A stretch of 64,000 bases of DNA from positions 35,949,361 through 36,013,360 of the forward strand of contig OX031064.1 in the NCBI GenBank assembly GCA_943736015.1, written 5' to 3'. The DNA is from Tridacna crocea. Its lineage: Eukaryota; Mollusca; Bivalvia; Cardiida; Cardiidae. Position 1 is the first letter of the stretch. Every line of letters starts with the position of its first letter. A program made the translations under genes and the position numbers. The notes below the pieces were generated by a model. It was not told the origin of the DNA. It saw only the letters and a program-made list of their open reading frames with translations, and made no database searches. Positions 3,999 through 62,935 of this stretch are shown here, piece by piece.

Positions 3999-4131
3999 TA
4001 ATACTTCTTTTTTTTCCTTTAATTAACTAAATTTTTAAAAATAGTCTTAAGTAGGACGCTGAAAATCATAAAAAGATGCTAACCAGTAATCCTTACCAAA
4101 CAATGCCATGTTTATACCAGTACTGAGTGTA

Positions 4132-5421: not shown

Positions 5422-5667
5422 GTACCCCACCAGTACTACCATTGAGAAGAAAGCTGCATTGAATAATTTCTCCATATTCCACAACTTTTGCAACCCTTTC
5501 CTGCGAAAATACCAGCATTCAATTGATTTGTCGTCTACATTTATGCCTTTAAATTTTGGGGTGTCTAAAATTTGGTTAAGGACAACAAATAAAAATGATC
5601 AACAAATCTTACAAAGGTCAGTTATTGAAAACACGTATAGAAGACGATTTTGAACGTTTGTGTCCCT

Positions 5668-13842: not shown

Positions 13843-14071
13843 TTAACCCATTACCACACAATCCCTACTTTTGACGACCCTGAGAAAGAGGCCTTAAGAA
13901 AACATTGTGGGAAAAAGAGAAAATGCTGGTAACCAGCACTTTCTCCTTTTCCCACAATGTTTTCTACCCTTCCCTAAATGAATTTCAAATTTTCAGTTAC
14001 TTTTATTTTGTCATCTGCAAATGCTTTCGTTTTGGACAAGCCTAAAATACTGTCGTTTGGTAATGAGTTAA
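13843..14071 (-). mobile_element. TTAA MITE family A, full copy
   Basis: 229 bp with TTAA at both ends; the CCACACAATCCCTACTTTTG end is on the left. Confidence 0.9.
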
Positions 14072-15891: not shown

Positions 15892-18800
15892 CTGAAACAA
15901 ACAGAAATATCTTTACTTAGTGTAACATGGAATATAGACAACCACTGTACCTCACACTGTTAAACACAAGTCTACTTTTACATGTTCTCTTCATCAAAAT
16001 ATCCCATGCTTTAACCCTTTCCGAAACAATCACTGGTTTTCACAACCCTGAAAAAGAAGTCTTTTGAAAACATTGTTGGAAAAGGAAAAAATGCTGGCAA
16101 CCAGATGTGTCAAAGTAGTGGACCCGTAATACTTATAGCGCAGTATAGCATAAAATTTCTTGACAGTTTGTTAAGACAGATTTATAGAGAAATAACATTT
16201 TCAAACATGTCTAACCTACCAAAAATTCATTTGATGTCTATCTTGAAGTTATTTTTTGATACTTTTGATACTTTAGCTGGTTTCCAGAAAAGGGAGGTAA
16301 TTATCATATCCTTCTGTAATGAGAATATAGTGGATTTAGATTTATAAATGATAACTCTATGATGGGCAAAAAGGAAAACGTGGCTCGGTGAACATTGTAC
16401 AATACATGTAATACTCATTTTCATTCTAAGCAAACTTTGTAGGATAGTATTACAGTGGAAATAGCTGTTTTCTATTAACACTTTACCAAACGACGAAATA
16501 GTAGACTTGTCCAAATCGAAAGCATTTGCAGATGACAAAATAAATGTGGATGAAAAATTAAAATTTGTTTTTGGAAGGGTTGAAAACATTGTGGGAAAAG
16601 GAGAAAATGCTGGTTACCAGCATTTTCTCTTTTTCCCACAATGTTTTCAAAAGGCTTCTTTCTCAGGGTCGTTAAAAGTCGGGATTGTGTGGTAAAGAGT
16701 TAAGGGTCCACTATGTTAAGGCCTCATTTGCAAAAGCATGGCTAAAATATATTCTTCAACCTTTCCCAATGAAATTTTGGTAATTTTGCTCAAAGGAAGA
16801 GATCCAGAAGTACAATTTCATTTGAAATCAATTAATAATATAATAAGGATGTACTTGTATGGGTGATGAACTTCGCTTATCCCATAATCTCACCATGCCA
16901 TATCTGGCCGTACCAGTAACCATAGAGACATCTCTGTCAGACTGGATACAGTACAAGGTTGTATCAAATGGCTCCTCCCACTCAACAACACTGAAAAATA
17001 TAATATTTAACGCTTATCTACACAATTCCAAGCATTAATGACCCTGAAGAAAAATAAACTTTGTGGAAATTGGGGAAAATGCTGGTATCCTTCATTTTCT
17101 CCTTTTCCTGCAATACCAATATTTTCGGCCTTTTCTACAATTTTTCCTTCACATGGATGTTAAAATTTGATAATTTTTGGGAAAGAGTTAATCCCATAGA
17201 GATCTGCAACGGATTTAAGGTGTATTTGCAAATAGTATATATCAAGATCAGACTGCACAGAACATGCAGTCTGATCTTGGATCTACTACTTTGAAATGGC
17301 ACCATTTTGCCCATAACTATTGGCTGGAAAATTTTAATCTCTGGGGGTTAAATCAATGCCAAACATAAGTGATTGAGAAAATTAAAAAAGAACAAGCAAT
17401 TTCGTTGAAATGATATCCCCCGCCGAAAAAGACCTTTTTTGATACAAACGTATAGGAGGTATTCTGTTTTGCATGTACATGTGGCCTTTTTGTTATTGGT
17501 CCATGATGAAATTATACATTAAGCTCCCTTGTTCCATGGCACAGGATTTCATTACATAAAAAAGGTCCATTACAGAATTATACATTAAGTATCCTTTTGA
17601 CAGAGCTTGGTATTTCATAAAAGTTGGAGATACACTGACAAAAAATTAAATTTGACATAAAGTCCCCTTTTTCCATGATACAGTGATAAATTGCAAAACC
17701 CAGAGATGTGCTAGGTCGCATGATCAGTGAAAATCTCGTCCAAATTTGTTGAGGTATGTCCAGTAATTAAAGAGATACAGGTGAAAAATGAAATTATTCC
17801 ATGATGCAGCTACAAATCCCAAAACCTTGACAATATGGCGTAGGTCACATGATCATGTAAAAATTCCATCCAAATCTGCCAAGAAATGTGGGAGGTGTTG
17901 TGTTAGGTCACACGATAATGTAAAAATTCCATTCAAATCTACCAAGAAATGTGGGAGAAGTTGCCTTCACAAGAAAAAGAATAAAATAAAACATGAAGCC
18001 CCTTTTTTCATGACGAAGCCACAAATTGCAAAACCTTGAGAATATGCAATAGCTCAGATGATAAGAAACATTCTGTGAAAATTCCATTGAATTCTGTCAA
18101 GAAATATGGGACGAGTTGCATTCACATTAAAGAAAATGAAATAAAACATGAAGCCCCCCTTTTTTCATGACGCAGCTACAAATCGTAAATCCTTGAGAAT
18201 ATGCGATAGGTCAAATGATGAGAAACATTCTGTGAAATTCATTTAAAGTCTGTCAAGAAATATGGAACTAGTAGCATTCACAAGAAATAAAATGAAATAA
18301 AACATGAAGCCCCCTTTTTTCATGACGCAGGTACAAATCGCAAAATGTTGACAATATGCAACAGGTGACATGACAAGAAATATTCTGTCAAAATTCTATT
18401 CAATTCCGTCAAGAAATGTGGAATGAGTTGCCTTCAAAAGAAATGGAATGAAATATAACATGAAACCCCCTTTTTCCATGACACCTTATTACAAAAACTA
18501 GAAGGCCCTGAAGGGCCTGAATATGCTCTACTGGCGGAAAGTTTGCTTTTAAATAAAGCATACATAGGAATTCATTACGCAAAAAGACAAAAAAGTTGAC
18601 ATTTTCAACTCAAAATGGCTACTTTTCCATTACTGTTTGTTGAATTTTTTCAAACTCAAAAGGGTTAAAAAGCTATTGATGGGATAAACAAGCTGAAAAA
18701 TTCATAAAAATCTGATCACAAATAAATACTTTATCATGTAAACAGGTAATAAAATTGTTCAATTTGAAATGGCTACTTTTCCCATACAGTATACTGTTTG

Positions 18801-21800
18801 TCAGATTTTTTTCAAAATCGATAGGCTTAAAGCTATTGATGAGATAAACAAACTGTGTAAGTTTCACAGAAATCTGACCAAAAATGAAGACTTTATCTTG
18901 TAAACAAGAAATGAAAATTTTCAACTTGAAATGGCTACTTTTCCCATACTGTTTGTTGGATTTTTTTCAAATCAATAGGGTTGAAGCTATCGATAAGATA
19001 AACAAACTCTGCAAGTTTCATGGAAATCTGACCAAAAATACAGACTTATTCGCGTAAACAAGAAATAGAAATTTTAAACTTGAAATGGCTACTTTTCCCA
19101 TACTGTTTGTCGGATTTTTTTCAAAATCAATAGGGTTAAAGCTATCGATGAGATAAACAAACTGTGTAAGTTTCACGAAAATCTGACCAGAAATGAAGAC
19201 TTTATTGCGTAAACAAGAAATGAAAGTTTTCAATTTGAAATGGCTACTTTTCCCATACTGTTTGTTGGATTTTTTTCAAAATCAATAGGGTTGAAGCTAT
19301 TGATAAGATAAACAAACTCTGCAAGTTTCATGGAAATCTGACCAAAAATACAGACTTAATCGCGTAAACAAGAAATGGAAATTTTAAACTTGAAATGGCT
19401 ACTTTTCCCATACTGTTTGTCGGATTTTTTTTCAAAATCAATAGGGTTAAAGCTATCGATGAGATAAACAAACTGTGTAAGTTTCACGAAAATCTGACCA
19501 GAAATGAAGACTTTATCGCGTAAACAAGAAAAAGACTAACGGACGGACGGACGGACGGACAGACGGACGACGGAAACCACGCCATGACATAAGCTCTGCT
19601 GGCTGAAAGCCAGTAGAGCTAACAAGGTCAAATAACTGTGGTGTTGCATGGTCAATGTAGGTGAAACTTTTTTTCCTGCATTTCCTAATGGAGGTTGGCA
19701 GATGTGACAAGTTCCATGTAAAAACTTTGTATAGTTTTGAAATGAAGGCCCCAAACATTAAAAGTGTACTTAAGTGAAACTTAAAATCGCTCTCCGTCGG
19801 CCATTTTGCATCGAATCAAAAAAACAAAAAAAGTGTCTCGGGAGATTGGGTCATTGTACATGTGTATAAAGTTTCACGAAATTCCGTGCAATGGTATTGG
19901 AGATATTTGCCGGGACGGACACACGGACGGACGGACAGACAGACGGACGGACTGACGGACGGACAACGCTAAAACTATATCCCTCGGCCTACGGCGGGGG
20001 ATAAAAAAAACCCACACACACCATAAGTTCAGGTTGTGTTCAGTGAATAAACCATGCTTATTGCTGCAATGTTCTCAGACAAACAGAGATTCTATCCACA
20101 AATCTGAAAACACATGGATCATTTTCATGCATCACAATTTTCTGTGAAGTTCGATCTTGGATCAGATTTATAATGTCTGTTTGTTTAGTTGGGCATATAA
20201 GATAAATGTATCTGAGTTTCATGGGAAAGAATCAGCAGCAGTCTATAGCAGTCAGTTTTATAATTTTGCTGCAAAAGTGAACCCTTTCCCAAACAATCCC
20301 TGTTTTTTACGGTCCTGAAAAAGAAGCCTTTTGAAAACATTGTGAGAAAAGGAGAAAATGCTGGTAACCAGCATTTTCTCCTTTTCCCACAATGTTTTCT
20401 ACCCTTCCGCAATCAAGTTACGATTTTTTAATCACATTACTTTTATCGTATGCAAATGCTTTCAATTTGGACCTGTCTAAAATTTTTTTGTTTGGTAGTA
20501 AAGAGTTAACACAAGCATGCACATCCAGAAATCATCAACTACTGACCTCAACACCTCAGTTTAGCATGTACTATCCAAACAAATTTCACACAGGTAAATA
20601 ATGCAAAACTGATTTCAGTCCTGTAGTACAACTTCAAAGACATACCATCTTCCAGATCTGACATCCCACATCCGCAAGTAACTGTCATATCCACAAGACA
20701 ACAGGGTGTGCTCATTCTCGTACCTCATATCTAGTATACCAGCCCCATACCTATAGCTGCCAAGATAGGAGATCAACTGACCCCTGAAAATAGAAGCATA
20801 CTATAGAGGTAACAACTCAGTGGGAAATAGAAGACCTTCACAAAGGAGTCCGACGAATCACCGAAATACCACCGAAACACCCCTTTTTTTTCAGTAACTA
20901 ATTAAAATTACTAATTACTAATGCAAATACGAAATATTTGTCTTTTTTGTATTGTTTTACACAAGTTATGTTTATACAAGGTGGTTAGTTTAAAACAAAA
21001 TGACTAAATAACAACATGCCATTGACATCCGCCAATAGACATTCACCGAAATACCCGTTGTCCACCGAAATAGTCATATTACTTAGATCTAGTCAAATAT
21101 GTGAATTCAGAGTGTTTATGTTTTTACTACAGTAGCTTTTTTAAAAGGTTGATGTGGTTGATTAATCGGACTGCTTCACAAAGTAATTGATCTATCATTT
21201 GTGGCATGGATTATCTCATTTCTAATATGAATGGTTGTTTCTGTAACTTATCATCATTTGATTCTAGTGAATCTTTTTATTATTATCTTGTGACAAATAG
21301 CTAAATATTCCTGTGAAGCATTATCCCAAAGGTCTTGTTGACCATCATCCAAAATTCCCTGTCACACACTATCAAAAATATTTATTTTCATGCCTCAATT
21401 CTGGCGAGACTAGAATCTCTTGATATTACTGAAGCATTATAACTTTAATTACTAACTTCTATAGGTAGAAGCAAATTGCTGGCTAGCAGAAACTGCACCT
21501 TTTCACATAATGTTTTGAAATGCAGGCACCTGCAGGCATCTACAGGGTCAAAGAATTGTATGGCTAAGGGTTGTATAATGTAACCCAAATAGAGAATCAA
21601 ACTCACCTGTTTATGTCCCAAACTGACAGAGGCGGTTCTCCATTGCAGCCTGCAGTACCAACAGCAAATGTACTGTAAAACATGAACAGTAAAGATTTAC
21701 TGTGTTTCTTCTAATTAAAGCACCCTTAAAGGTGGCCCTTCAGATTTTGGGATGAAAATTTCACAAAAAGACAAAAAAAATCATCCTTATACTCCCAAAG

Positions 21801-24800: not shown

Positions 24801-27800
24801 AAAAATCGAAGCTCCCGCTGCGCCATTTCATTGGATGTGATCAAAACCCATGTGTCCAATCAAACCATCCGTAACAAGGAATCTTTCACAAAACAGAAAA
24901 CAATAATGGCGGCACCCATCAAAAAAACGGAAGTTGTCACGTTTGTGACAAAAATTTGCCAAAAAAGAGTAGACGATTGATATTAAATGAGTTTTTTATA
25001 GTTTACGATCAATTATGTGAAATATTAGGACGGTTTCCACACCCAAAAGATTGCGAATCATCGTATGTCTGTTCATCTTGTTTTTAATGTGATGAATACA
25101 AAAGCAAAGTCATATTTGATGCATAGCCTAACAAATTTTATTACGAGCATTTTGATCAGTCAGAAATAACATCAGCAAAGGTTACGCAACTTGCGATTTT
25201 CGATAGGTGGCACAGCGGGAGTTTCGATTTTTAAAGAGGCCAGAAGCCTAGGGTATGTAACGAACAAAGTGGAGTTAGTATCCTTGGGTTGTGAAGATGC
25301 ATCAAATTGGGCAAAAAGTGTGTATGCATATTTCTTTTTAACATCTTCTCACAATCCATTTCTACCCTCTGGCACACTAATCCCTTTTCATACTGTCTTT
25401 AGCCTGCATTGCAGCTAACTTATTTTTCATAGACTTACATTCATAATATCACTATCATTATTGAATCATTTATGTTTGTCTCTGATCTATGTACAAGACC
25501 ACTGTTTCACCATTAGATATATGTATATCAACTCACTACCAAACAACAATATTTTAGGTTTGTCCAAATCGAAAGAATTTGGAGACGGCAAAATTTGAAA
25601 TTTGTTTTGTGAAGGGTAGAAAACATTGTGGGAAAAGGAGAAAATGCTGGTTACCAGCATTTTCTCAGGGGCGTCAAAAGTAGGGATTGTGTGGTAATGG
25701 GTTATAAGATTGAACTCAGTCCTGAACTAACTTTGTTTCAATTTGTAAACCCCAGTACACCCCAAGCTGACAGATCTATATCCCCTAACTCTAGCAGAGG
25801 TAAACTGGTCCATGGATATTCAGAAAATTTGCATTTTGTCCTTTTCCCACAATGTTTTCTACCCTATCACTAAACAATTGCACTGTTTGAGCCGTATTGA
25901 AACTGTTGTCTGCAAATGCTTTGAATTTGGACAGGGCTAAAATTTTATCGTCTGGTTAAAAGTTAACCCTTTTCCAAACAACAAATTTTGGACCCTTCTA
26001 AACCGAAAGAGTTTGCAGACGACAATTTAAGATTTGGAGAAAAATTGCTGAAAGTTCTCAAAAAGGGTAGAAAACACTGTGGGAAGAAGGAGAAATTGCT
26101 CGTTACGAGCAATTTCTCCTTTTCCCACAGTGTTTTCAGAAGATTTCTACTGCAGACATGTAAAAACCAGGGCTTATTTGGGAAAGGATTAAATTATCTA
26201 GCACATGGGCTTAGTTATTGACAAGCATCAACATCTATAGTATGAACAGGACCTGAGTTTGAAGACATTACATGAATTAATATGAATTGATAGAGGTAAT
26301 GTATATAGAGAGAGATAACATGAATGCTAAAAGGTGAAGTTGATATTTCAAAAATAATTGTTTAGTATGTTAGAGTGACACTTTTCATACAGAAAATATC
26401 ATAAAAGCGAAAAGTATTGCAATCCGCGCAGTCTGACCAGTGTCGACACTTTTCACAGTTCTAACATGGTCCCTTTTCATGTGATGGGTCACAAATGTAA
26501 AAAAATATGCCTGTAAAAAAATAAAATATAGGGCTTGGTGTTAGTATAAAACTTGTAAGAAGTAATACCTTCACAGTTTTGTCAACAGATCCAGATATTA
26601 TGCATGAATCGTGAAAATCTACAGTCAGTGTATCTGTCCTGTGTACATCAGGAAACTTCACAATTTTTCTTCCAGTCTGACAATCAAACACATGTAAACT
26701 GCCATCTCTAAAAGGTAATAATGGTAGAACTTTAAAGGCAACCACATGTATTTAGATTTTCATAAACTCACCAAACTGTAAAAATGAATCAACATTAAAT
26801 TGAGCATGGCAATAACATGATGTTCCCACAATGTATTCTACTGTTCTACAGTCAAGTTTGAATATCGGAGTCACATCTACATTGTAACCTGCATTTTCTC
26901 CTTTTACCACAATTTTCTATACCCTTCCAAAACCTAATTCAAATTTTTCAGTTACATTTAATAATGTCATCTGCAAATGCTTTATATTCCAACCATTCTA
27001 TAATTTTGTTGTTTGGTAAAGAGTTTTAACCTGTGAATTACGTAAAAAAAAACCTTTAACTCTTTACCAAAAAGCAAAATTCTGGACAAGTCTAAATTGA
27101 AAGCATATGCAGACGACAAACTTTAAAGTGACTGAAAAATTAAAATTTGTTTTGGGAAGGGTAGAAAACATTTGAGGAAAAGGAGAAAATGCTGGTTACC
27201 AGCATTTTCTCCTTTTCCCTCAATGTTTTCAGAAGGCTTCTTTCTCAAGGTCATTAAAAGTTGGGTTTGTGTGGTAAAGACTTAAAGACAAAAGTAAAAA
27301 CCCATATTTTGCTATTTCAAAGATACTTTTGGGGAAAAAAAGATCTCCTTACGGAACAGTATAGATCCAATATCAGACTTCAAAGAACATGCAGTCTAAC
27401 TTCGGTCTGAACAGTCTGCAAAAGGTCCTAGAGTAACACTTATCAGGCTAACGGTTAACAGAGGGTTGCTTGCTTAACCCTCCAATAGACAACAAAATTT
27501 TAGCCTTGTCCAAATTGACAGCATTTGCAGACGACAATTTCAGTGTGGCTCAAATGGTGCAATCTTTCTTTGACAGAGTAGAAAACATTGCTGGAAAAGG
27601 AGAAAATGCTGGTTACCAGCATTTTCTCCTTTTCCCACAATGTTTTCAAAAGCCCTCTTTTCCAGAGGGGTTAAAAGTTGGCTTTGTGCAGTAAAGGGTT
27701 AACCCTTTAATGACAAAACAAAATTTCAGAACCCATCCAAACTCTTTTCAAGGCATCTGCTGATACAAATTTAAAGTAGCTCATAACAATAATTCATCTC

Positions 27801-30800: not shown

Positions 30801-31606
30801 CTTGTTTTTTGCTGCTATAAAACCTTTTACAGTGGTAAACATTCCCAAGAAGCTCTCTTAGCCAAAAAAATGGATCAAATACAGAACTGAAACAACAAAG
30901 GGCTCATTTTATTGAAAACCATCATTTCCCCCAAATAACTCATCAGTTGTTTTAACATCACAATATTTATTTACACTTTGTGCCCATAATTTTCAAAGTA
31001 TGATACAGAAAATTATGTATCTGTGATAAGTTTACAGACTGTGACCTTTAGGAATACCCCCTTAAATGACGTCATTTTTTACTACATTTGGAATGACTCT
31101 GTATTTTTCTAAAATGATTCACGAATGTATGGGAAACTGTCTGGTCAATTTCTGGCAGTGATCATATGTAGCCTTGTAGGGTGATTTCACCATGGCAAAT
31201 GAGTTATTAAGCATATTTTCCCTTCTCCAAAAATGATTTCTGACTCTCTCTATGTCTATTAATATGCCTGAATTAAATCATTGCTTTGTTTGTCTCTTTG
31301 AAAGAATGAAAATATCAGTAAGGCTAGCGAATGTTTCAGAAAAGGGCATATCCTTCGAAACGGAGTTAAGTCTTACAGTTTTGAGGTCTCCGTTGAGTGA
31401 AATAGAGTGAATCTTCTACAATGCCTCAACCAGACAGTATCAGATTGCAGGAGTCTGTTGAATCGTCTACACACTCGGCATAATCTCCCTAACGTCTTCA
31501 CGTCACATTTGGAAAATATGGCGTATAGAACGTCGTCAAGCAGGTGACCTATCGACAGAGCTTGTCCAGGTTGGCTGAACGTTTCGCCCGCTCCTTGATG
31601 CATCAT
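15772..31606 (-). CDS. FBXW4: FBXW4, F-box and WD40 repeat protein 4 (whole spliced gene, 9 coding exons)
   Basis: Nine minus-strand exons join in frame: 31606-31377, 29389-29294, 28193-27978, 26707-26569, 23653-23553, 21672-21607, 20783-20646, 16990-16855 and 15891-15772. Together they are 1242 nt, 413 residues plus stop; human FBXW4 has 412. Every junction has an AG acceptor and GT donor with matching phase (2,2,2,0,2,2,2,0). An F-box lies at about residues 17-62 and WD40 blades follow to the C-terminus. Passages alignable by eye with the human protein as I recall it include IWSVGMAPQG, LLSCGYDSYLRMWDVR, VVEWEEPFDTTLYCIQ and YGMVRLWDKR. Known family role: FBXW4 (dactylin) binds SKP1 through the F-box and recruits substrates to the SCF (SKP1-CUL1-RBX1) ubiquitin ligase; its substrates are poorly defined. 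I see no frameshift or stop, so the gene looks functional. Introns of 0.8-3.7 kb are packed with TTAA MITEs and other repeats. Confidence 0.95.
16011..16103 (-). mobile_element. TTAA MITE family A, left-half fragment (FBXW4 intron 8 side)
   Basis: TTTAACCCTTTCCGAAACAA to GCTGGCAACCAG, broken at the palindrome centre. Confidence 0.7.
16475..16703 (+). mobile_element. TTAA MITE family A, full copy
   Basis: 229 bp with TTAA at both ends; FBXW4 intron 8. Confidence 0.9.
16855..16990 (-). CDS. FBXW4: FBXW4 exon 8 (WD repeat)
   Basis: A 136-nt exon with acceptor TTTTTCAG and donor GTACAT. It encodes VVEWEEPFDTTLYCIQSD, VSMVTGTARYGMVRLWDKR and SSSPIQ, matching human VMEWEEPHDSTLYCLQTD...YYGVVRLWDRR. 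Ends in phase 0. Confidence 0.95.
17008..17191 (-). mobile_element. TTAA MITE family A, diverged copy
   Basis: ATTTAACGCTTATCTACACA start, GGGAAAGAGTTAAT end, mismatched core; FBXW4 intron 7. Confidence 0.6.
17240..17286. repeat. AGATCAGACTGCACAG hairpin (family C core)
   Basis: ATCAAGATCAGACTGCACAG faces CATGCAGTCTGATCTTGGAT. Confidence 0.7.
17412..20010. mobile_element. HINE/helentron-like element with ~156-bp core repeats, interrupted
   Basis: Ends are short inverted (TATCCCCCGCCG at 17414 and CGGCGGGGGATA near 19994). Core repeats marked by ATGAAGCCCCCTTTTTTCAT recur at about 17992, 18148, 18304 and 18462. An ACGG/ACAG tetranucleotide tract lies at 19909-19970. Bases 18497-19621 are a second element inserted into it. 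This is the layout of mollusc 'pearl' elements (known family). Confidence 0.6.
18497..19621 (-). mobile_element. HINE/pearl-type element with six ~155-bp monomers, nested
   Basis: On the minus strand the 3' end has the hairpin AGGCCCTTCAGGGCCT just inside CTAGT and the subterminal CCAGTAGAGC. The opposite end carries AGCTCTACTGGC. Monomers start (AAATGGCTAC) at 18613, 18768, 18929, 19083, 19238 and 19393. An ACGG run sits at 19540-19566. It has no protein-coding frame. Confidence 0.7.
20278..20509 (-). mobile_element. TTAA MITE family A, full copy
   Basis: About 232 bp in FBXW4 intron 7; the left end is TGAA, the right end TTAA. Confidence 0.87.
20646..20783 (-). CDS. FBXW4: FBXW4 exon 7 (WD repeat)
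   Basis: A 138-nt exon with acceptor TATTTTCAG and donor GTATGT. It encodes GQLISYLGSYRYGAGILDMR, YENEHTLLSCGYDSYLRMWD and VRSGR. The human equivalent is GQLMTHLGS...GAGVLDVMYE...LLSCGYDTYVRYWDLR. This is the most conserved segment of the gene. Confidence 0.96.
20784..21606. other. FBXW4 intron 6, no repeat recognised
   Basis: 823 bp of AT-rich sequence with ACCGAAATA(C/G) repeated a few times near 20850-21075 and a weak MITE-like piece near 21480; nothing else identifiable. Confidence 0.6.
21607..21672 (-). CDS. FBXW4: FBXW4 exon 6 (short)
   Basis: A 66-nt exon with acceptor TTTTACAG and donor GTGAGT. It encodes STFAVGTAGCNGEPPLSVWD then INR, matching human SFVTGTACCGHFSPLRIWDLN. It is too short to stand out as an open frame and was found by homology and splice phase (2/2). 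Confidence 0.93.
22557..22784 (+). mobile_element. TTAA MITE family A, full copy
   Basis: 228 bp in FBXW4 intron 5; right end TCAA. Confidence 0.85.
22860..23020 (-). mobile_element. TTAA MITE family A, diverged fragment
   Basis: ACAATGCTATCCTCACTTT left part and GTGGGAAAAGG core; the right end is lost. Confidence 0.6.
23258..23445 (-). mobile_element. tRNA-related SINE
   Basis: Minus strand: a head with TCCAGGGTTTGAGC (B-box-like), then GGCAAGACACTGCTGTGCC and AAATAAGTGAGCTGTAGC. It lies within FBXW4 intron 5. Confidence 0.5.
23553..23653 (-). CDS. FBXW4: FBXW4 exon 5 (WD repeat)
   Basis: A 101-nt exon with acceptor TTTCTGCAG and donor GTTAGT. It encodes ILSNAFCNNASNIVHTSI then DIGDRIWSVGMAPQGR, matching human CLHTIQTEDRVWSIAISP. 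Confidence 0.93.
23678..23890 (+). mobile_element. TTAA MITE family A, diverged copy next to FBXW4 exon 5
   Basis: TTAACTTTTTTGCCAAGCAA start about 22 bp upstream of the exon 5 acceptor; core GTAACCAGTACTTTCTCC. Confidence 0.6.
23885..23975 (-). mobile_element. TTAA MITE family A, left-half fragment
   Basis: CCTTTACCACTATTGATCGT to AGAAAATGCCAGTAAC, abutting the previous copy. Confidence 0.55.
24284..24505. mobile_element. Palindromic MITE, family E copy 1
   Basis: A near-perfect inverted repeat of 222 bp: CCAGGGTCTGTATTCACCAA reads back as TTGGTGAATACAGACCCTGG. The centre contains AACTTCTGATTGGCTAAACC and its complement. A second copy lies at 61217-61417. Confidence 0.8.
24590..24745 (+). 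repeat. 48-bp tandem repeat array, interrupted
   Basis: Four copies of a ~48-bp unit (GTGTGTATGCATATTTCTTT then AACATCAAACTGGGC). One more copy in the same orientation (25303-25345) lies beyond the inserted element. Confidence 0.85.
24748..25299. mobile_element. Mutator-like non-autonomous element with 9-bp target duplication
   Basis: Inverted ends begin CATCTTCACAA(g/c)CCAAGG and include CCTCTTTAAAAATCGAA and CTCCCGCTG; each spans about 75-90 bp. The flanking direct repeat CATCAAATT (24739-24747 and 25300-25308) is perfect. The element interrupts a 48-bp tandem array. Nine-base duplications and long inverted ends are typical of Mutator-like elements (known). The interior resembles a gene start (see 24906-25092). 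Confidence 0.7.
24906..25092 (+). pseudogene. Possible captured gene 5' fragment inside the Mutator-like element
   Basis: ATGGCGGC (a YY1-like context) opens a 24-codon frame starting MAAPIKKTEVVTFVTKIC and ending in TGA at 24980. In an overlapping frame, 24976-25092 reads LILNEFFIVYDQLCEILGRF then PHPKDCESSYVCSSCF before a stop. The spaced C...C..C pattern resembles N-terminal zinc-binding domains. The two frames do not join directly, so this is either a decayed fragment or chance. The parent gene is not recognised. Confidence 0.3.
25303..25345 (+). repeat. Distal copy of the 48-bp unit
   Basis: Reads CAAATTGGGCAAAAAGTGTG onward. It continues the array that starts at 24590, showing that the array pre-dates the insertion. 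Confidence 0.8.
25529..25704 (+). mobile_element. TTAA MITE family A, copy with a shortened right arm
   Basis: The palindrome runs directly from CAGCATTTTCTC into AGGGGCGTCAAAAG, so the second CCTTTTCCCACAATG arm is deleted. Confidence 0.8.
25835..25966 (-). mobile_element. TTAA MITE family A, right-half fragment
   Basis: Starts CCTTTTCCCACAATGTTTTC and ends at TTAA 25963-25966, shared with a family B copy. Confidence 0.75.
25963..26192 (+). mobile_element. TTAA MITE family B, full copy
   Basis: 230 bp, same plan as family A but with CCCTTTTCCAAACAAC ends and core GGAGAAATTGCTCGTTACG facing its complement. Confidence 0.88.
26569..26707 (-). CDS. FBXW4: FBXW4 exon 4 (WD repeat)
   Basis: A 139-nt exon with a TTTTAG acceptor and GTATTA donor. 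It encodes RDGSLHVFDCQTGRKIVKF then TVDFHDSCIISGSVDKTVK, a WD40 blade matching human GGDGKIGIHKIHS...GIIVSGSRDRTAKVW. Ends in phase 0. Confidence 0.95.
26890..27029 (-). mobile_element. TTAA MITE family A, right-half fragment
   Basis: GCATTTTCTCCTTTTACCAC to TTGGTAAAGAGTTTTA; FBXW4 intron 4 side, ~180 bp upstream of exon 4. Confidence 0.7.
27056..27285 (+). mobile_element. TTAA MITE family A, full copy
   Basis: 230 bp; the core arms are GAGGAAAAGGAG and CTCCTTTTCCCTC, a compensatory-looking pair. FBXW4 intron 3. Confidence 0.88.
27474..27702 (+). mobile_element. TTAA MITE family A, full copy (chain)
   Basis: 229 bp; right TTAA 27699-27702 shared with the next copy. FBXW4 intron 3. Confidence 0.88.
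27699..27932 (+). mobile_element. TTAA MITE family A, diverged full copy (chain)
   Basis: 234 bp, TTAA at both ends; ends 45 bp from the FBXW4 exon 3 donor. Confidence 0.8.
27978..28193 (-). CDS. FBXW4: FBXW4 exon 3
   Basis: A 216-nt exon with acceptor CTATAG and donor GTACAA. It encodes QLPWMQYLDQTLWISTQN through FVVKDDILVSGC, the first propeller blades (human QMPWMQLEDDSLYISQ...HIVSAGG). Two back-to-back MITEs end about 45 bp downstream of its donor, at 27932. Confidence 0.95.
28269..28335 (-). mobile_element. TTAA MITE family A, left fragment
   Basis: TTTAACCCTTTACCAAACAA to GAAAACACATGG, stopping before the core. Confidence 0.65.
28493..28765 (+). mobile_element. tRNA-derived SINE with conserved central domain
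   Basis: tRNA-like head: TTAGCTCAGCAGGTAGAGC (A box) and GGTTGTGGGTTCAAATCCCC (B box). The body contains GGATGAGACATTAAACCAAG then GGTCCTGTGTG and GTTAAAGAACC. This central block recurs in SINEs of many invertebrates (recalled; possibly the MetaSINE type). FBXW4 intron 2. Confidence 0.75.
28931..29160 (-). mobile_element. TTAA MITE family A, full copy
   Basis: 230 bp with TTAA at both ends; core TTGGAAAAGGAAAAAATGC. FBXW4 intron 2. Confidence 0.88.
29157..29275 (+). mobile_element. TTAA MITE family A, right-half fragment next to FBXW4 exon 2
   Basis: AACATTGTGGGAACAGAAG to GGGATTATTTAATAAAG, ending about 18 bp from the exon 2 donor. Confidence 0.6.
29294..29389 (-). CDS. FBXW4: FBXW4 exon 2
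   Basis: A 96-nt exon with acceptor TTTATTGCAG and donor GTAAAG. It encodes KLKEQCRISLNWVKKFYRER then ILLRHNPR, matching in position and pattern the human stretch KERVKVSQNWRLGRCREGILL. Phase 2 at both ends. A MITE fragment ends about 18 bp inside the following intron. Confidence 0.92.
29502..29738 (-). mobile_element. TTAA MITE family A, near-full copy
   Basis: CTTTTACCAAACAATCCC start, TTTGGTAAAGAGTTAA end; the left TTAA is lost. FBXW4 intron 1. Confidence 0.83.
29746..29955 (+). mobile_element. TTAA MITE family A, near-full copy
   Basis: TTAGCTCTTTACCAAACGAC start; part of the left arm is deleted; core AATCCTGGTTACCAGGATTT. Confidence 0.83.
30331..30559 (-). mobile_element. TTAA MITE family D, full copy
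   Basis: 229 bp with ends TTATCTCTTTACTCCATAG and GGGTTAAAGGGTTAT. Core GGTGAAATTGCTCGTAACG faces its complement. FBXW4 intron 1. Confidence 0.8.
31377..31606 (-). CDS. FBXW4: FBXW4 exon 1 (start codon, F-box)
   Basis: Encodes residues 1-76 plus two bases. It starts at ATG 31606 (the next codon is also Met) and contains the F-box core LLDDVLYAIFSKCDVKTLGR followed by CRVCRRFN and the Trp of VWLRHC. The donor is GTAAGA at 31376. The reading frame stops just past the donor (TAA), which supports the splice call. Confidence 0.93.
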
Positions 31607-31753
31607 TCGATTCTAAATAATCGCTTCTACAGCTAGTGATTGAAGCTAAAATCTGTAGACTACAGCCTTTTTTACTCATTGTAGGCGATAAAATACGAAA
31701 TTTCGAAATCAATCGTAATTTGATGAAATGTTGTCCGCCATATTGTTTTGGTT
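31607..31753 (-). promoter_or_regulatory. FBXW4: FBXW4 5' UTR and probable core promoter with a YY1-like site
   Basis: Between the start codon and the foldback element there are only about 147 bp. Read on the minus strand, 31747-31734 contains AATATGGCGG, close to the YY1 consensus that often sits at or just after animal transcription starts (known). This suggests a start site near 31.74 kb. No TATA box was seen. The transcription start is inferred. Confidence 0.45.
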
Positions 31754-34050
31754 GGGTATGACTAGATACCGAAAATAGCCTATTTTCGCGAAAATAGCTT
31801 TCCCTGTACGAAAATAGCTTCCAGCAATTGCTGTCTGGATGTATGTTTGAATATATTGCTTTTATTTGTTATTTTTATATACTATCTTTCATAACAGATA
31901 TTGCTGACGTGTTGAAAAAGCGTGAATTGAAATTAATTGATCTTAATAGAGGTTTCAGACAACTGGACTTTATGCATATATGCACAGCCCATTTTTGCAA
32001 ACATAACTTTCCCTCTACGAAAATAGAATACATTAAATGATGCATAAATACATTGTTGAATACATCGTTTTTATTTCTCTTTTTATACATTATCTTTCAT
32101 TACATATCAGAAACCTATTTGAAGCAAAGCATCAAATAGAAGACCGAAAACGATTATCGCAAGTGTGACATTGTTAACACCTCATTAACAGAGGTGTTTT
32201 AATCCAATCAAACTATTTTCGTACGTTCGTCTTAGAGAACTATTTTCGTGGTAACTCCCTTTAAACAGAAGCTATTTTCGTTAGGTTCCTATTTTTGTAT
32301 CGAAAGGGAAGAGTTATTTTCGTACATTAAATGATATATAAATATATGGTTGAATACATTGCTTTTATTTCTCTTTTTCTTATACATTATCGTTCATTTC
32401 ATACCAGAAACGTATAAATTTAAAAAGCGTGAATTGTAGAACAATAGGTCTCAAAAGAGTAACGTTGTTATATAACTGGAATGTACATGAATAGATGTGT
32501 TTTTTTTTTTTGTAATACCTTCAAAAACAATTGATTAACGTGTCTTTCTTCCTAATTTTTATACAATATATTTTCATCCTAACTTCTTTGTATTTATTCA
32601 AAGAGAAGTCCGAAAACGATTATCGCAAGTGTGATATTGATAACACATAATTAACAGAAGTGTTTTAATCCAATCAAACTATTTTCGTACGTTCGTCTTA
32701 CAAAATTATTTTCATTGTAACTCCCTGACGAAGCTATTTTCGTCAGGTTCCTAATTTTGTATCGAAAAGGAAGAGTTATTTTCGTACGTTTTATGATATA
32801 TTTATAAATATATGGTTTAATGCATTGCTTTCATTTCTCTATATTTGTTATACATTATCTTTTATTGCATACTAGAAACGTATTCAAAAACGTGAATTGT
32901 AGAACACTAGGTCTCAAAAGAGTTCTTATGTGACTGGAATTTACATGAATACATGCAGATATGTATCAAATGTTTTCTTTTTTTTAATATCTTCGAAAAC
33001 AATTGATTAACGCTTTTTTCCCCCAATATACAATATATTTTCATCTTACGTTCTTTGTATTTGTTCAAATAGAAGACTTAAAACGATTATCGCAAGTGTA
33101 ACATTGATAACACTTCATTAACAGAGGTGTTAATTTAATCTAATCAAACTATTTTCGTACGTTCGTCTTACAAAACTATTTTCGTTGTAACTCCCTGACG
33201 AAGCTATTTTCGTCAGGTTCCTAATTTTGTATCGAAAGGGAAGAGTTATTTTCGTACGTTTTATGATATACAGTATTTATAAATATGTGGTTGAATACAT
33301 TGCTTGTATTTCTCTTTTTCTTATGCATTATATTTTATTACATACCAGAAACGTATTTAAAACTTGAATTGTAGAACAATAGTTCTCAAAAGAGTTTTTA
33401 TATGACTGGAATGTACATGAATACATGTAGATATATGTATCAAATGTTTTCTTTCTTTTTTTTTTTTTTTTTTTTTTACTATCTTCGAAAACAATTGATT
33501 AACGCCTCTTTTTGCCTAATATATACTATAAGTTATCATCTTGCGTTCTTTATATTTGTTCAAATAGAAGACCGAAAACGACTATCGCAAGTGTGACATT
33601 GATAACACATCATAAATAGAGGTGTTTTAATCAAACCAAACTATTTTCGGACGTTCGTCTTACAAAACTATTTTCGTTGTAACCCCTTTCAAACAGAAGC
33701 TATTTTCGTTAGGTTCCTATTTTTGTATCGAAAGGGAAGTGTTATTTTCGTAAATTAAATGATATATAAATATATGGTTGAATACATTGCTTTTATTTCT
33801 CTTTTTATACATTATCTTTCATTACATATCAGAAACCTATTTGAAGTAAAGCATCAAATAGAAGACCGAAAACGATTATCGCAAGTGTGACATTGATAAC
33901 ACATCAAAAACAGCTGGAGGTGTTTTAATCCAATCTAACTATTTTCGTACGATCGTCTTACAAAACTATATTCGTTGTGAATCCCTTTAAATAAATGCTA
34001 TTTTCGCTAGGTTCCTATTTTTGTATCGAAAGGAGAGAGTTATTTTCAGA
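31754..34050 (+). repeat. Left inverted arm of the foldback element (five tandem units)
   Basis: The landmark GCAAGTGTGA-type motif recurs near 32160, 32625, 33090, 33590 and 33880, giving spacings of about 465, 465, 500 and 290 bp. Each unit also holds CTATTTTCGT repeats, poly-T tracts and a GGTTCCTA...GTATCGAAAG block. Confidence 0.75.
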
Positions 34051-35369
34051 GTCGGAAAAAATCTATGGGGAGGAGAGAATTTCACGCAAATTCCAACGGA
34101 CTTTTTAAGTTAAGATGCGAAATTGTTCGTGCTTTTGGTAAATGTGAAATGTAGATTTTTAAATTGCATGTTTGAAGGAGATTGAAAAGTGCCTCAAAAA
34201 GGTTTCCTCTTTTCGTTAAAATATTCATTCATATCAATACAAGATCGAATTCTAGACCGGTGGCAAGTCAGTCCACAAAAAAAAAACCAAGGCATACGTT
34301 GCTAACTTTTAATATGCATATATAGTTACTTACAGACAAAATAGTGTCCGCGAAAAGTATTGAACGGAGTCGACCCGTACGGACTGTGCAGTGCAACCGA
34401 AGTCTATAATTTGGTGCCAGTATATGGAGTTCCCTTTTCCATTCTCCGATTAAGTTAAAAAAAAAAGAGATCTTTTGACAATTCTAATTATGATCATTGA
34501 ATACAGCATAAACTCTTACTACGCATAATTTATTCATATAGAGAATAAAAACATTGTGGGAGAAGAAGAAAATGCGGGTAATCAACATTTCTCTCTCATC
34601 CTTTAATGATGACCAAATAAACCCCCGTTTTAAGAAAATTGCTTACGTAATTCTGTGGGAAAACTTTTAAATGCGGGTAACCTGAACTTGATACTTATTC
34701 TTCTTTCCACAATGTTTTGCACCCTTGCACAAACCAGCCCTATTATCCAATTTGCAGCTTGAGGATTCTATATGCAAAGAAATGGTTTCATTGCAGGAAA
34801 ATGAGAAAAAGCTTTGTAATAGTAATGCCTAAGTACTGAAGATGGAGGTTTTGCGTGGCTTAGTGGTTAAGTATATGCGACTAGTAACTTGGAGACCCGA
34901 GTTCGAGCCATTACACCTGCCATATTTGCGGGATTTTCATGGAAGTATCTGTGGGCAAGACGCTTCAGAGTTCCAGCATTGGGCTGGTAAAATCCAGACA
35001 ATGTGTATAATTTAGCTGTCTCCGTTATAAGATTGAAATAATGTTGATAGCACATGAACTTTTCATGGTACCCTTTTGACCTGGCTGAGCCTCTGTAAAA
35101 CATTGCTCTGTAATCGAAAATAACGTGCTTGCAGCTACTTTCCACGAGTTTATTTCCCTCTCTTAAAAAATTAACTTATCCCATTCGGAAAAAAGGCCAG
35201 GAACTAGAATTTCCATCCGACGATAATAACTATCCTTTTCTATTTCATTTTTTCTGGTGAGTATATCCTAACCAGACAGTATATATTAAAGGTCATACTG
35301 GAGATTCTGTACAGTCTGATGTTGACCTACACTGTCAAAGAAATCTGCGCTTACCAGCCTAAAGGTTAA
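34051..35369. other. Spacer of the foldback element, non-coding
   Basis: About 1.3 kb between the arms with no long coding frame of recognisable type. It holds degraded MITE-like pieces (34540-34790) and a tRNA-derived SINE (34853-35150). Confidence 0.6.
34853..35150 (+). mobile_element. tRNA-derived SINE in the foldback spacer
   Basis: The head resembles a tRNA: A-box-like TGGCTTAGTGGTTAAG and B-box-like GAGTTCGAGCC about 40 bp later. A body containing GGGCAAGACGCTTC follows. The minus-strand open frame across it is a by-product. Confidence 0.6.
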
Positions 35370-36911
35370 CCTAATCTATTTTCGTTCAAAGATTGCTATT
35401 TCGGTATCGAATAGGTAAGCTCCCTTTCGATACAAAAATAGGAACCTGACGAAAATAGCTTCGTCAGGGAGTTACAACGAAAATAGTTTTAAAAGGCGAA
35501 CGTATGAAAATAGTTTGATTGGATTAAAACACCTCTATTTATGATGTGTTATCAATGTCACACTTGCGATAATCGTTTTCGGTCTTCTATTTGAACAAAT
35601 GTAAAGAACGTAAGATGAAAATTTATAGTGTATAATAGGAAAAAAGAGGCGTTAATCAATTGTTTTCGAAGATATTAAAAAAAGAAAAAACATTTGATAC
35701 ATATATCTACATGTATCAGTCATGTACATTCCAGTCATATAACAACTCTTTTGAGAACAGTTGTTCTACAATTCACGTTTTTAAATACTTTTCTGGTATG
35801 TAATAAAAGATAATGCATAAGAAAAAGAGAAATAAAAGCAATGTATTCAACCATATATCTATAAATATATCATTTAATGTCCGAAAATAACTCTTCCCTT
35901 TCGACAAAATACAAAATTAGGAACCTGACGAAAATAGCTTCGTCAGGGAGTGACAACGAAAATAGTTTTGTAAGACGAACGTACGAAAATAGTTTGATTG
36001 GATTAAAACACTTCTGTTAATTATGGTGTCATCAATATCACACTTGCGATAATCGTTTTCGGGCTTCTATGTGAATAAATACAAAGAACTTAGGATGAAA
36101 ATATATTGTATAAAAATTAGGAAGAAAGACACGTTAATCAATTGTTTTTGAAAAAAAAAAAAAAAAAAAGATATATCTATTCATGTACATTCCGGTCATA
36201 TAACAACTCTTTTGAGACCTATTGTTCTTCAATTCACGGTTTTTAAATTTATACGTTTCTGGTATGTAATGAAAGATAATGTTTAAGACAAAGAGAAATA
36301 AAAGCAATGTATTCAACCATATATTTATATATCATTTAATGTACGAAAATAACTCTTCCCTTTCGATACAAAAATAGGAACCTAACGAAAATAGCTTCTA
36401 TTTAAAGGGAGTTACCACGAAAATAGTTCTGTAAGACGAACGTATGAAAATAGTTTGATTGGATTAAAACACCTCTGTTAATGAGGTGTTAACAATGTCA
36501 CACTTGCGCTAATCGTTTTCGGTCTTCTATTTGATGCTTTGCTTCAAATAGGTTTCTGATATGTAATGAAAGATAATGTATAAAAAGAGAAATAAAAACG
36601 ATGTATTCAACAATATATTTATGCATCATTTAATGTATTCTATTTTCGTAGAGGGAAAGTTATGTTTGCGAAAATGGGCTGTGCATATGCATAAAGTCCA
36701 GTTGTCTAAAACCTCTATTAAGATCAATTAATTTCAATTCACACTTTTTTCAACACGTTAGCAATATCTATTATGAAAGATGGTATATAGAAATAACAAA
36801 TAAAAGCAATATATTCAAACATACATCCAGACAGCAATTGCTGGAAGCTATTTTCGTACAGGGAAAGCTATTTTCGCGAAAATAGGCTATTTTCGGTATC
36901 TAGTCATACCG
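35370..36911 (-). repeat. Right inverted arm of the foldback element (three tandem units)
   Basis: Reverse complement of the left arm. The TCACACTTGCG landmark occurs near 35560, 36042 and 36500, so this arm has two fewer units than the left arm. Confidence 0.75.
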
Positions 36912-37204
36912 GTTTTGGTTCGGTATCCGGTTAAAACGACCCACAGTCAAAACGCCAAACTTTTGGTTATTTTAATATGTCCCTACTCAAGTTCCATTTC
37001 GAAGTGGTTAAGACGTCCCGCGAAAACGTCCCTATATACTTCATTAACATTGTTAGTATTAGTCTGATTTTGTTAGGTTATTTCAGAAGACGATCATAGT
37101 TGATGATTATTTTTTCTGATGTTTGCGTTGGGTGTGTTTTGGGGTGGTGGTGGGGGTGGGGTGGGGCCCGGGGGTTTGAAGAACATTCGGACCCAAGAAG
37201 ATCC

Positions 37205-38005
37205 GTCCCAAAGAAAGATAGAAGGCCCTGAAGGGCCTGAATATTATGCTCTACTGGCAGAGAATTAAATTTTGCTTTTATGCTAGCATACATTTTGAAT
37301 TCATAATGCAAGAAGACAAACATGGCATGCAACCTTTATCGCGTAAACAAGAATTGGTAATTTTCAACTGGAAATGGTTTCTTTTCCCATACAGTTTGTT
37401 GGATTTATTTCAAAATCGATAGGATTGAAGCTATTGGTGAGATAAACAAACTATGCAAGTTTCACAAAAATCTAATCACAAATGCACAATATATCCCGTA
37501 AACAATACTTTGAAATTTCCAACTTGAAATGGCTACTTTTCCCATACTGTTTGGTGGATTTTTCTCAAAATCAATAGGATTGAAGCTACTGATAAGATAA
37601 ACAAACTGTGTGATTTTCATAAAAAAATCTGACAAGAAAGACAAACTATATCTCGTTAACAATAATTTGAAATTTTCAACTTGAAATGGCCACTTTTCCC
37701 ATACTGTTCGTTGGATTTTTCTCAAAATCAATAGGGTTGAAGCTACTGAAAAGATAAAAAAACTGTGTGATTTTCATGAAAATCTGACCAGAAAAACAGA
37801 CTTTATCGTATAAACATGAATTAGAAATTTTCATCTTAAAATGGCTACTTTTCTCACCTTGTTGTTGGATTTTTTTTTTTTTTTTTTTCAAAATCAATAG
37901 GGTTTAAACTTTTGATGAGATAAACTGTGCAAGTTTCACGAAAATCTGGCAACAAATGCAGACTTTATCGTGTAAACAAGAATTTGAAATTTTCAACTTG
38001 AAATA
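37205..38005 (-). mobile_element. HINE/pearl-type element, truncated, four monomers
   Basis: Same AGGCCCTGAAGGGCCT hairpin (37222-37240) and CTCTACTGGC as at 18497. Monomers with GAAATGG(C/T)TNCTTTTC start near 37369, 37526, 37684 and 37840. The array breaks off near 38005 before any ACGG tract. A poly-T run interrupts the last monomer. Confidence 0.7.
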
Positions 38006-55764: not shown

Positions 55765-57740
55765 GTTTACCTAAATGAAATTTTGATTTGCATTAAAAAG
55801 TTTTGACCCAAGTGCTCACAAAAAAATTGAAAAATAGGCATTGCCAGCAACCTGATAGTTGAAACTTCCATTTGTACTATAAAACCCCTGTCCCTGGTCA
55901 CAATATATGTGTATACAATGGCAGTTCCTACTATCAGTCTACTGAACCTCACCTGCCTATAGGAATATACTGTTAGAAGAATAACTGACTTGGAAACATA
56001 TAACCTGATCGTTTGATTCAAATCTAACCTAGCAGGTGTAACTTATCTATATTTGAAAGATGAGTTTTCAAAACAAAAAAGAATGCATTGGAGGTAAGTT
56101 TTTAAGTTGACCAGGCCTGTAAAGTTACGCTTTGATATCACAAGTATAAATTATGACCCAAATGCTTACAAATAGTTGAAACATAAATAGTGTGAAAAAA
56201 GTAACCCTTGTCCTAGGCCACCACATAAAACCGAAGTTCCTACTTTCATTTAACTGAACCTCGACTTACCAAAGAGAAATTTTGATTTGCATTTGACCCA
56301 AGTGCTTACAAAAATTTGAAAAAAAGGCATTGCCAGCAACCTGATAATTGAAACTTCCATTTGTACTATAAAACCCCTGTCCCTGCCACAATGTATACAA
56401 TGGCAGTTCCTACTATCAGTCTACTGAACCTCACCTGCCTATAGGAATATACTGTTAGAAGGATAATTGACTAGGAAACATATAGCCTGATCCTTTGATT
56501 CATATCTAACCTAGCAGGTAACTTATTTATATTTGAAAAATGGGTTTTCAAAACAAAAAGAATGCATTGGAGGTAAGTTTTTAAGTTGACCAGGCCTGTA
56601 AAGTTACGCTTTGATATCACAAGTATAAATTATGACCCAAATGCATACAAATAGTTGAAACATAAATAGTGTGAAAAAAGTAACCCCTGTCCTAGGCCAC
56701 CATATAAAACCGAAGTTCCTACTTTCAGTTAACTAAAACCTAAACTTACCAAAGAGAAATTTTGATTTGCATTTGACCCAAGTGCTTACAAAAATTTGAA
56801 AAAAAGGCATTGCCAGCAACATGATAATCGAAACTTCCATTTGTACTATAAAACCCCTGTCCCTGGTCACAATATATGTGTATACAATGGCAGTTCCTAC
56901 TATCAGTCTACTGAACCTCACCTGCCTATAGGAATATACTGTTAGAAGGATAATTGACTAGTAAACATATTACCTGATCCTTTGAATCATATCTAACCTA
57001 GCAGGTGTAACTTATTTTACATTTGAAAGATGGGTTTTCAAAACAAAAAGAATGCATTGGAGATAAGTTTTTAAGTTGATCAGGCCTGTAAAGTTAAGCT
57101 TTGATTTGTGAAGTATAAATTATGACCCAAATGCTTACAAATAGTTGAAACATAAATAGTGTGAAAAAAGTAACCCCTGTCCTAGGCCACCATATAAAAC
57201 CGAAGTTCCTACTTTCATTTAACTGAACCTTGACTTACCAAAGAGAAATTTTGATTTGCATTTGACCCAAGTGCTTACAAAAATTTGAAAAATAGGCATT
57301 GCCAGCAACCTGATAATTGAAACTTCCATTTGTACTATAAGACCCCTGTCCCTGCCACAATGTATACAATATGGCAGTTCCTACTATCAGTCTACTGAAC
57401 CTCACCTGCCTATAGGAATATACTGTTAGAAGGATAATTGACTAGTAAACATATAACCTGATCCTTTGAATCATATCTAACCTAGCAGGTGTAACTTATT
57501 TTATATTTGAAAGATGGGTTTTCAAAACATAAAAGGATGCATTGGAGTTAAGTTTTTAACTTCACCAGGCCTGTAAAATTATGCATAACGTAAGTATAAA
57601 TAATGACCCAGTGCTTACAAACAGTTGAAATATAAATAGTGTGAAAAAAGTAACCCCTGTCCCAGGCCACAGTATATGAAATGGAAGTTCCTACTCTTAG
57701 TCAACTGAACCTCGCCTACCTATAGGAATATTTGGTGTCA
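55765..57740 (+). repeat. ~490-bp tandem array, about four units
   Basis: TTTTGATTTGCATT recurs at 55780, 56280, 56760 and 57249 (spacings 500, 480, 489). Each unit holds two related halves (CTTACAAAAATTTGAAAAA / CTTACAAATAGTTGAAACA), so it is a dimeric repeat. A partial fifth copy ends near 57740. Frames inside are not credible genes. Confidence 0.85.
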
Positions 57741-62458: not shown

Positions 62459-62700
62459 TCTTAAGCTCTGCAAAATTTACAGCATAATAATTTCTATGCA
62501 GACAAGTCATATTGAATTTGGATCAAATAATGGCATTTGTCTTTGGAAATTTTAAAAAAGTGTTACAAAAAGATAAAACCTGTAACCAATTTTTATTCCT
62601 TTCCCATAATACTTTTCAAAGCCTACCTCCTTTTCCCTCAATACTTTCCAAAACTAAACTCCCTCAAGTGAGTACATGGAATTGTATTGTAAAGGATTAA
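62459..62700 (+). mobile_element. TTAA MITE-like, strongly diverged
   Basis: CTTAAGCTCTGCAAAATTTA start and TATTGTAAAGGATTAAA end. Confidence 0.4.
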
Positions 62701-62705
62701 ATGAC

Positions 62706-62935
62706 TTAACCCATTACCACACAATCCCTACTTTAGACGCCCCTGAGAAAGAAGCCTTTAGAAAAACATTGTGGGAAAAGGAGAAAATGCTGGTAACCAG
62801 CATTTTCTCCTTTTCCTACAATGTTTTCTAACCTTCACAAAACAAATTTCAAATTTTCAGTCACTTTTATATTGTCGTCTGCAAATGCTTTCAATTTGGA
62901 CCAGTCTAAAATATTGTTGTTTGGTAATGACTTAA
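62706..62935 (-). mobile_element. TTAA MITE family A, full copy
   Basis: 230 bp with TTAA at both ends. Confidence 0.9.

Follow-up and report, generated by a model that had tools for sequence, protein, structure and literature searches.

Among the 64,000 nucleotides of the Tridacna crocea genome analysed here (the window, on contig C9 of an assembly of 1.05 Gb in 31 contigs), a 5158-bp element with long inverted arms lies beside the predicted start of an F-box gene. This raises the questions of what the element is, how it came to lie there and whether its position matters for the gene. The element is a transposon, one of dozens of copies in the genome. We consider it most likely to be a recent, non-autonomous foldback transposon, moved in trans by a Mutator-like element (MULE) transposase encoded elsewhere.

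Structure of the foldback element

The original prediction had placed a foldback element with long inverted ends and 9-bp flanks at 31754-36911, and these coordinates proved exact. Perfect 9-bp repeats GTTTTGGTT bound the element on both sides. This 9-mer occurs nowhere else in the window, where about 2.1 occurrences per 64 kb are expected by chance; the repeats are significant because both are placed exactly at the element edges, not because of their rarity. The parts of the element are as follows:

31745-31753, plus strand: left 9-bp target site duplication GTTTTGGTT (sequence, flank comparison)
31754-36911, plus strand: foldback transposon of 5158 bp in G...G orientation (genome-wide, 96 tip matches and 37 facing pairs)
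31754, plus strand: unpaired outermost base, G tip (sequence, end alignment)
31755-31770, plus strand: imperfect palindrome of the left tip (sequence, stem prediction)
31755-31919, plus strand: outer inverted arm, left (98% to the right arm)
31770-36895, no strand: cluster of 31 CTATTTTCG/CGAAAATAG motifs (putative candidate sites)
31978-32460, plus strand: second inverted segment, left (98%)
32132-33841, plus strand: left-arm tandem array, period 466 bp, 3.6 copies, 83% matches (repeat analysis)
34048-35360, plus strand: element centre, longest frame 102 aa (frame and copy comparison)
35421-36534, minus strand: right-arm array of the same 466-bp units, shorter (approximate limits, from repeat families)
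36206-36688, minus strand: second inverted segment, right (inverted-repeat comparison)
36746-36910, minus strand: outer inverted arm, right (inverted-repeat comparison)
36895-36910, minus strand: tip palindrome of the right end (sequence, stem prediction)
36911, plus strand: unpaired outermost base, C tip, which is G on the plus strand and C when read inward (sequence, end alignment)
36912-36920, plus strand: right 9-bp target site duplication GTTTTGGTT (sequence, flank comparison)

The inverted arms are a composite mosaic. The outer pair of segments (165 nt) and the second pair (483 nt) are each 98% complementary, and over the first 705 bp the two arms agree at 684 positions, differ at 19 and have 4 gap positions. 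Inward of the paired segments, both arms carry tandem units of about 466 bp, fewer of them in the right arm, followed by the 1.3-kb centre. The centre recurs in many genome copies, complete or partial; its longest stop-to-stop frame, of 102 aa, has no Pfam match above the cut-off. The CTATTTTCG/CGAAAATAG motif, with 31 copies inside the element and none in the remaining 58.8 kb of the window, is a candidate for a repeated protein-binding site. The first 16 arm bases form the imperfect palindrome GGTAT-GACTAG-ATACC, and the predicted tip stem has 5 bp on the G tip and 6 bp on the C tip, where the C base extends it.

To the eye, a tRNA-like stretch within the centre (GTGGCTTAGTGG...GAGTTCGAGCC, 34855-34920) resembles the promoter of a short interspersed element. 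ARAGORN identified no tRNA anywhere in the window, and an Rfam search of the window at gathering thresholds returned nothing.

Copies in the genome and their target sites

A genome search with the 26-nt tip, allowing up to 2 mismatches, gave 96 matches (49 forward and 47 reverse), against 0 for the reversed control. These tips make up 37 facing pairs of 0.45-16.3 kb and 22 unpaired ends; neighbouring ends less than 20 kb apart are all facing, with 0 in other orientations. Both flanks were inspected in 39 copies, namely a first set of 23, which includes the window copy, and a further 16. Perfect 9-bp duplications flank 30 of the 39 (18/23 and 12/16), four more copies of the first set have a duplication with one mismatch, and the further 16 include one copy with a 10-bp and one with an 8-bp duplication. 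The duplication is missing or poor in three: L080 (3 mismatches), C1:42.11 Mb (right tip damaged) and C18:26.89 Mb (flanks inverted). Shifted controls for the first set gave 2 agreements with at most one mismatch in 2254 comparisons. The copies differ in arm length and unit number, and the arms are strongly unequal in L064, L066 and L075. Thus the other arm copies with 9-bp flanks for which the original prediction had proposed a search are present in number, and the absence of any other copy, which would have spoken against it, is excluded by the 96 tips.

A paralogous empty site supports insertion. The joined flanks of the L071 copy match a related repeat inside L067, in which the target GTTATTGAT is single, at 344 identical of 380 positions with 2 single gaps. 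A candidate empty site for L075 was not used (71% alignment, gaps and two target changes). Inverted arms could also arise by chance, through inverted duplication of a segment or as an artefact of assembly. We found no point in support of this explanation; it is opposed by the empty site and by dispersed copies with separate target duplications, and because 39 copies were examined at both ends, most with their own duplication, we regard its probability as practically nil.

The family also appears to have spread recently. The outer arms of the window copy diverge by 1.2% and 2.4% from a 42-arm consensus, and in 16 younger copies the arms differ by a mean of 3.8% within an element and 4.4% between elements, as in a recent and nearly star-like expansion; on this divergence, the window element is young. 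Strong gene conversion between arms is disfavoured, because the partner is the unique nearest arm for only 1 of the 42 arms. Partners nevertheless seem somewhat more alike than random arms, because, when the arms of all 21 copies were re-paired at random, 1 of 2000 trials reached a mean as low as the one observed. No description of this family was found in the open-licence PubMed Central (PMC) literature searched.

Polarity of the tips

One extra base separates the duplication from GGTATG, with which the arm begins. It is equal at both ends on the plus strand (G...G or C...C), hence the ends are non-complementary there; the arms otherwise match, and the outermost base alone differs. Read inward, one end starts with G and the other with C in 36 of the 39 copies (22/23 and 14/16); L067, the exception of the first set, has A on the right. 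We aligned 34 G-ends and 30 C-ends from the available loci, dropping one T-end, and no other column in the outer 220 bp of these 64 ends separates the two kinds (maximum difference 0.20, shuffled mean maximum 0.22).

The tip base also predicts the orientation of the core, in 23 of 26 copies (binomial p = 8.8e-5): G...G goes with the window orientation and C...C with the reversed one. The count comprises 13 agreeing copies with L072 disagreeing, plus 10 agreeing with C8:5.87 Mb and C10:51.1 Mb disagreeing; at C5:7.99 Mb a single tip was read. Left out were L066 (176 bp, 76%, agreeing) and L075 (111 bp, 85%, disagreeing), whose inclusion gives 24/28, as well as hits shorter than 60 bp and centre hits at loci whose tips could not be read. 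The tip base tracks the core; therefore, the element has polarity. The three disagreeing cores would be the expected product of crossing-over between the inverted arms. The 1.1-kb copy L099/L100 (C18:26892647-26893775), which has two G tips, inverted flanks and no direct duplication, resembles the product of a palindromic rearrangement.

A second foldback family in the window bears on the same point. A smaller foldback at 4125-5428 has arms of a 16-bp minisatellite (4132-4241 versus 5343-5422), is flanked by the 9-bp repeat ACCAGTACT (4116-4124 and 5429-5437, read by eye), and its two tips differ in the outer 7 bp. The two tip patterns have 81 and 110 genome matches at up to 1 mismatch, with 0 in controls. 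Pairing used 181 listed ends, namely all 81 and 100 of the 110; 154 of them form 77 pairs shorter than 10 kb and 27 are unpaired, and among the matches listed all 77 pairs (77/77) join one tip of each kind. The largest pair among those listed (4188 bp, C8:17.89 Mb), known from its tip positions and a profile match alone, contains a PF10551 MULE match (E 7.2e-8) in a 376-aa open frame, where 0.005 such coincidences are expected by chance. The genome thus appears to hold an asymmetric-tip foldback family with a MULE-bearing member; the single copy of this family examined in sequence is flanked by a 9-bp repeat.

We consider two possibilities for the origin of the polarity. First, the G/C difference may simply have been inherited from an accident in the founder copy and play no part in transposition, and we give this an even chance. 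The likeness of the copies to a recent burst (3.8% versus 4.4% in the 16 younger copies) favours it; however, the polarity is kept in two strongly diverged copies, L066 and L075, the one clearly symmetric case (C18) has inverted flanks, as if rearranged rather than transposed, and the second family shows mixed tips throughout the pairs listed. Moreover, the tips of the nematode element Tm1 are asymmetric over 7 bp (PMC3169594; here and below, published systems are cited from parts of the papers concerned). Second, transposition of Mutator-type foldbacks may need one tip of each kind, here a single G versus C, and symmetric copies would arise by recombination and be immobile. This is a tentative proposal, somewhat more likely wrong than right. 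If it is true, one polarity rule would cover the 77/77 mixed pairs of the second family as well as the A1/A2 motifs of Tm1, and the synaptic complex would tell left from right in seemingly symmetric transposons.

Whatever its origin, the end polarity of the window family is unusually minimal and strict, and it is the most interesting feature of the family. With its copies, duplications and empty site, the family is a clean natural data set on how foldback ends are distinguished. It also offers a frequency of arm recombination, as the tip base marks the original orientation and 3 of 26 cores are flipped.

Superfamily and the missing transposase

The window element is probably of Mutator type. 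We file it there by analogy with the second window family, which has asymmetric tips and a MULE match, and with Tm1, which shows the same combination. The target duplications of the window family (perfect 9 bp in 30/39 copies, one of 10 bp and one of 8 bp) fall within the 8-11 bp of MULEs (PMC6446971). Its copies are dispersed with target site duplications, as in foldbacks generally, and its long inverted arms of tandem repeats vary among copies. Like Tm1, it has an asymmetric tip sequence outside the inverted repeat, of one base, in 36/39 copies.

Several results weigh against this assignment and the history that goes with it. The stretches of copies that were read yielded no transposase of the window family. 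The genome has 61 hits to PF10551, 5 to PF12762 and 105 to PF20700, and for each of the three profiles none lies within a listed pair of the family; the Pfam searches score a limited candidate list, which makes this absence weak evidence. None of these PF10551 hits lies closer than 344 kb to one of the 96 listed tips. For PF20700, the closest cluster stands 12 kb away from a single degraded tip and the next one at 360 kb. From each of four long copies 3.0-6.5 kb was read, and these parts contain nested elements or lack long frames. The C6 copy (6.5 of 12.0 kb read) has a retrotransposon-like pol frame, and the C11 copy (3 of 7.9 kb read) has one resembling, by eye, a long interspersed element fragment; in the C12 copy (4 of 8.4 kb read) and the C13 copy (3.5 of 12.3 kb read), frames do not exceed 162 aa. 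Of the 16.3-kb copy on C8 and the 15.6-kb copy on C9 the ends alone were read. A 9-bp duplication by itself is no proof of a MULE. An empty site for the window insertion was not found in its own genome by a joined-flank search, which matched only the locus itself (two half-matches) and, in part, the right-flank repeat (38 times); the paralogous empty site described above is that of the L071 copy. Finally, the CpG pattern around insertions, described below, amounts to preference or survival and does not demonstrate promoter targeting.

The degraded tip near the PF20700 cluster (C10:24287012) was dropped as a lead, as chance gives such proximity in about 9% of trials. The PF20700 Mutator-like transposase matches are tandemly arrayed at C6:22.66-22.68, C2:28.236-28.249 and C5:42.33-42.37 Mb, and the spacing of the C6 array is regular, at 4207 bp.

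Alternatively, the element could belong to another superfamily, as a P/Galileo-like or Merlin/IS1595-like foldback whose long repetitive arms arose by convergence. Merlin duplications are 8-9 bp and those of the P element 8 bp. The searches found no identifying transposase for the window family, which leaves room for this alternative, and Galileo is built in the same way, its long arms carrying tandem repeats and multiple transposase sites (PMC3688188, PMC3573991). However, Galileo duplications are 7 bp (PMC3573991), a length that the window family does not share, as 9 bp dominates here, and the IS1595/Merlin profile PF12762 has 5 partial genome hits, the nearest 4.8 Mb from a listed tip. We therefore hold this explanation to be unlikely.

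For a Mutator-type element, we propose the following course. A transposase would bind the CTATTTTCG/CGAAAATAG sites along both arms, one G tip would be synapsed with one C tip, and cleavage would take place at the asymmetric tips. Insertion would follow with a 9-bp stagger, unmethylated or open promoter-like DNA being preferred, and this preference would account for the position beside the F-box gene. Occasional recombination between the inverted arms would then flip the core, as in 3/26 copies, while the tips stay put.

Insertion sites and the neighbouring F-box gene

MULEs tend to insert in or near genes (PMC6446971), and the original prediction had seen a special placement at a promoter. 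The neighbouring features are as follows:

31379-31606, minus strand: F-box frame, putatively FBXW4-like, with a predicted splice site (Pfam)
31735-31744, minus strand: YY1-like AATATGGCGG (motif count against shuffles)
36922-37019, plus strand: first part of a dispersed repeat that adjoins the right duplication (match reaching the query end at 37019)

The F-box frame (Pfam F-box-like, E 7.7e-10) has its predicted start, an ATG, at 31606, and the foretold distance of 147 bp to the element edge holds for it. Downstream of the F-box there are weak beta-propeller matches below Pfam cut-offs; the gene is a putative FBXW4, the name given in the original prediction. The expected YY1-like site was also located, directly outside the left duplication on the gene's side; AATATGGCGG occurs 2 times in the window versus 0.32 expected, and 7/100 shuffles reach 2.

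On the far side, a dispersed repeat beginning GGTATCCGGTTAAAACG adjoins the right duplication. It has 38 further partial matches at 76-90% identity among the matches listed (the best 40 of 216 candidates), and in two copies read across the junction the similarity ends at or just before the junction point. Behind it, a 155-bp minisatellite starts at 37330. As the far flank is a dispersed repeat and a minisatellite, little unique gene-adjacent upstream DNA was displaced; the insertion beside the gene, to judge from these flanks, mainly displaced another repeat that already abutted the site.

The position is less special when the whole family is considered. In 53 flanks, the CpG observed/expected ratio (o/e) falls from about 1.0 beside insertions to 0.61 at 1.0-1.4 kb, the window background being 0.50. 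After 10 flanks with short centre-like repeats were dropped, the remaining 43 have an o/e of 1.04 within 200 bp versus 0.66 at 1.0-1.4 kb (33 up, 9 down, 1 tie; Wilcoxon 1.4e-4, for a set that may hold both flanks of one copy and is thus not fully independent), and the GpC control shows no such difference (p 0.18). At the window insertion, o/e is 1.83 in 31607-31744 (only 7 CpGs) and 1.57 in 36921-37100 (10 CpGs). Such CpG-undepleted flanks suggest unmethylated, promoter-like or young sequence, and promoter-like landing sites may be a habit of the family. As foreseen, an F-box gene does have the element at its 5' end; the flanks of the family are generally CpG-undepleted, however, so the placement may reflect this habit and nothing gene-specific.

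An effect of the element on F-box transcription is possible. That the element matters chiefly through a changed F-box promoter, its start moved or silenced, seems improbable to us. The edge 147 bp from the ATG, beside the YY1-like site, and the element's own CpG-undepleted arms (o/e 1.4-1.5) speak for it; however, the YY1-like site stays with the gene, another dispersed repeat makes up the far flank, and location alone argues little in a family with such flanks.

Other repeats in the window

The 155-bp minisatellite family occurs twice (18601-19531 and 37330-37874, about 80-84% alike), and a period-156 array at 17919-18482 has no match to it at E 1e-10. A repeat of about 105-180 bp lies at many places, such as 62699-62880, 13843-14016 and 27111-27286, and also inside the L066 copy. 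A 480-bp tandem array occupies 55802-57712 (3.9 copies, 92% matches), and a pyrimidine-rich 73-bp tandem array (63654-64000) reaches the window end.

Comparison with known foldback systems

Foldback anatomy is shared with FB/NOF of Drosophila and TU of the sea urchin. Drosophila FB makes 9-bp duplications, as the window family mostly does, a likeness of description and not of sequence. Phantom-type transposases combine a FLYWCH domain with a MULE transposase. Foldbacks occur in D. melanogaster and sea urchin according to the parts of one account used here (PMC4079207), which also describes Tetris of Drosophila virilis. Like the window family, Tetris has arm tandem units (about 220 bp), a variable middle domain, 8-10-bp duplications and no transposase copy found; its units are 220 versus 466 bp, and three structurally complete copies stand against our 37 tip pairs (PMC4079207). 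The comparison is by description, not sequence, and tip asymmetry is not mentioned in the part of that account available (PMC4079207).

Galileo, of the P superfamily, also has long repetitive arms, in which footprinting and sequence search revealed repeated transposase-binding sites (PMC3688188), and its chimeric copies are ascribed to recombination (PMC3688188, PMC3573991). Unlike the window family, it has 7-bp duplications and a known P-type transposase (PMC3573991).

A further parallel is with Tm1, a Mutator/Foldback family of root-knot nematodes. In Tm1, asymmetric motifs of 7 bp lie at the ends beyond the inverted repeat, most duplications are 9 bp long, and one copy has a Phantom-type transposase (PMC3169594). 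Tm1 and the window family share composite arms, variable tandem repeats, mostly 9-bp duplications, transposase-less copies and asymmetric ends; they differ in the length of the units (about 14 bp versus 466 bp) and of the asymmetric ends (7 bp versus one base), and in the Phantom-type copy, which has no counterpart found here (PMC3169594). The window family belongs to an ordinary, known kind of transposon.

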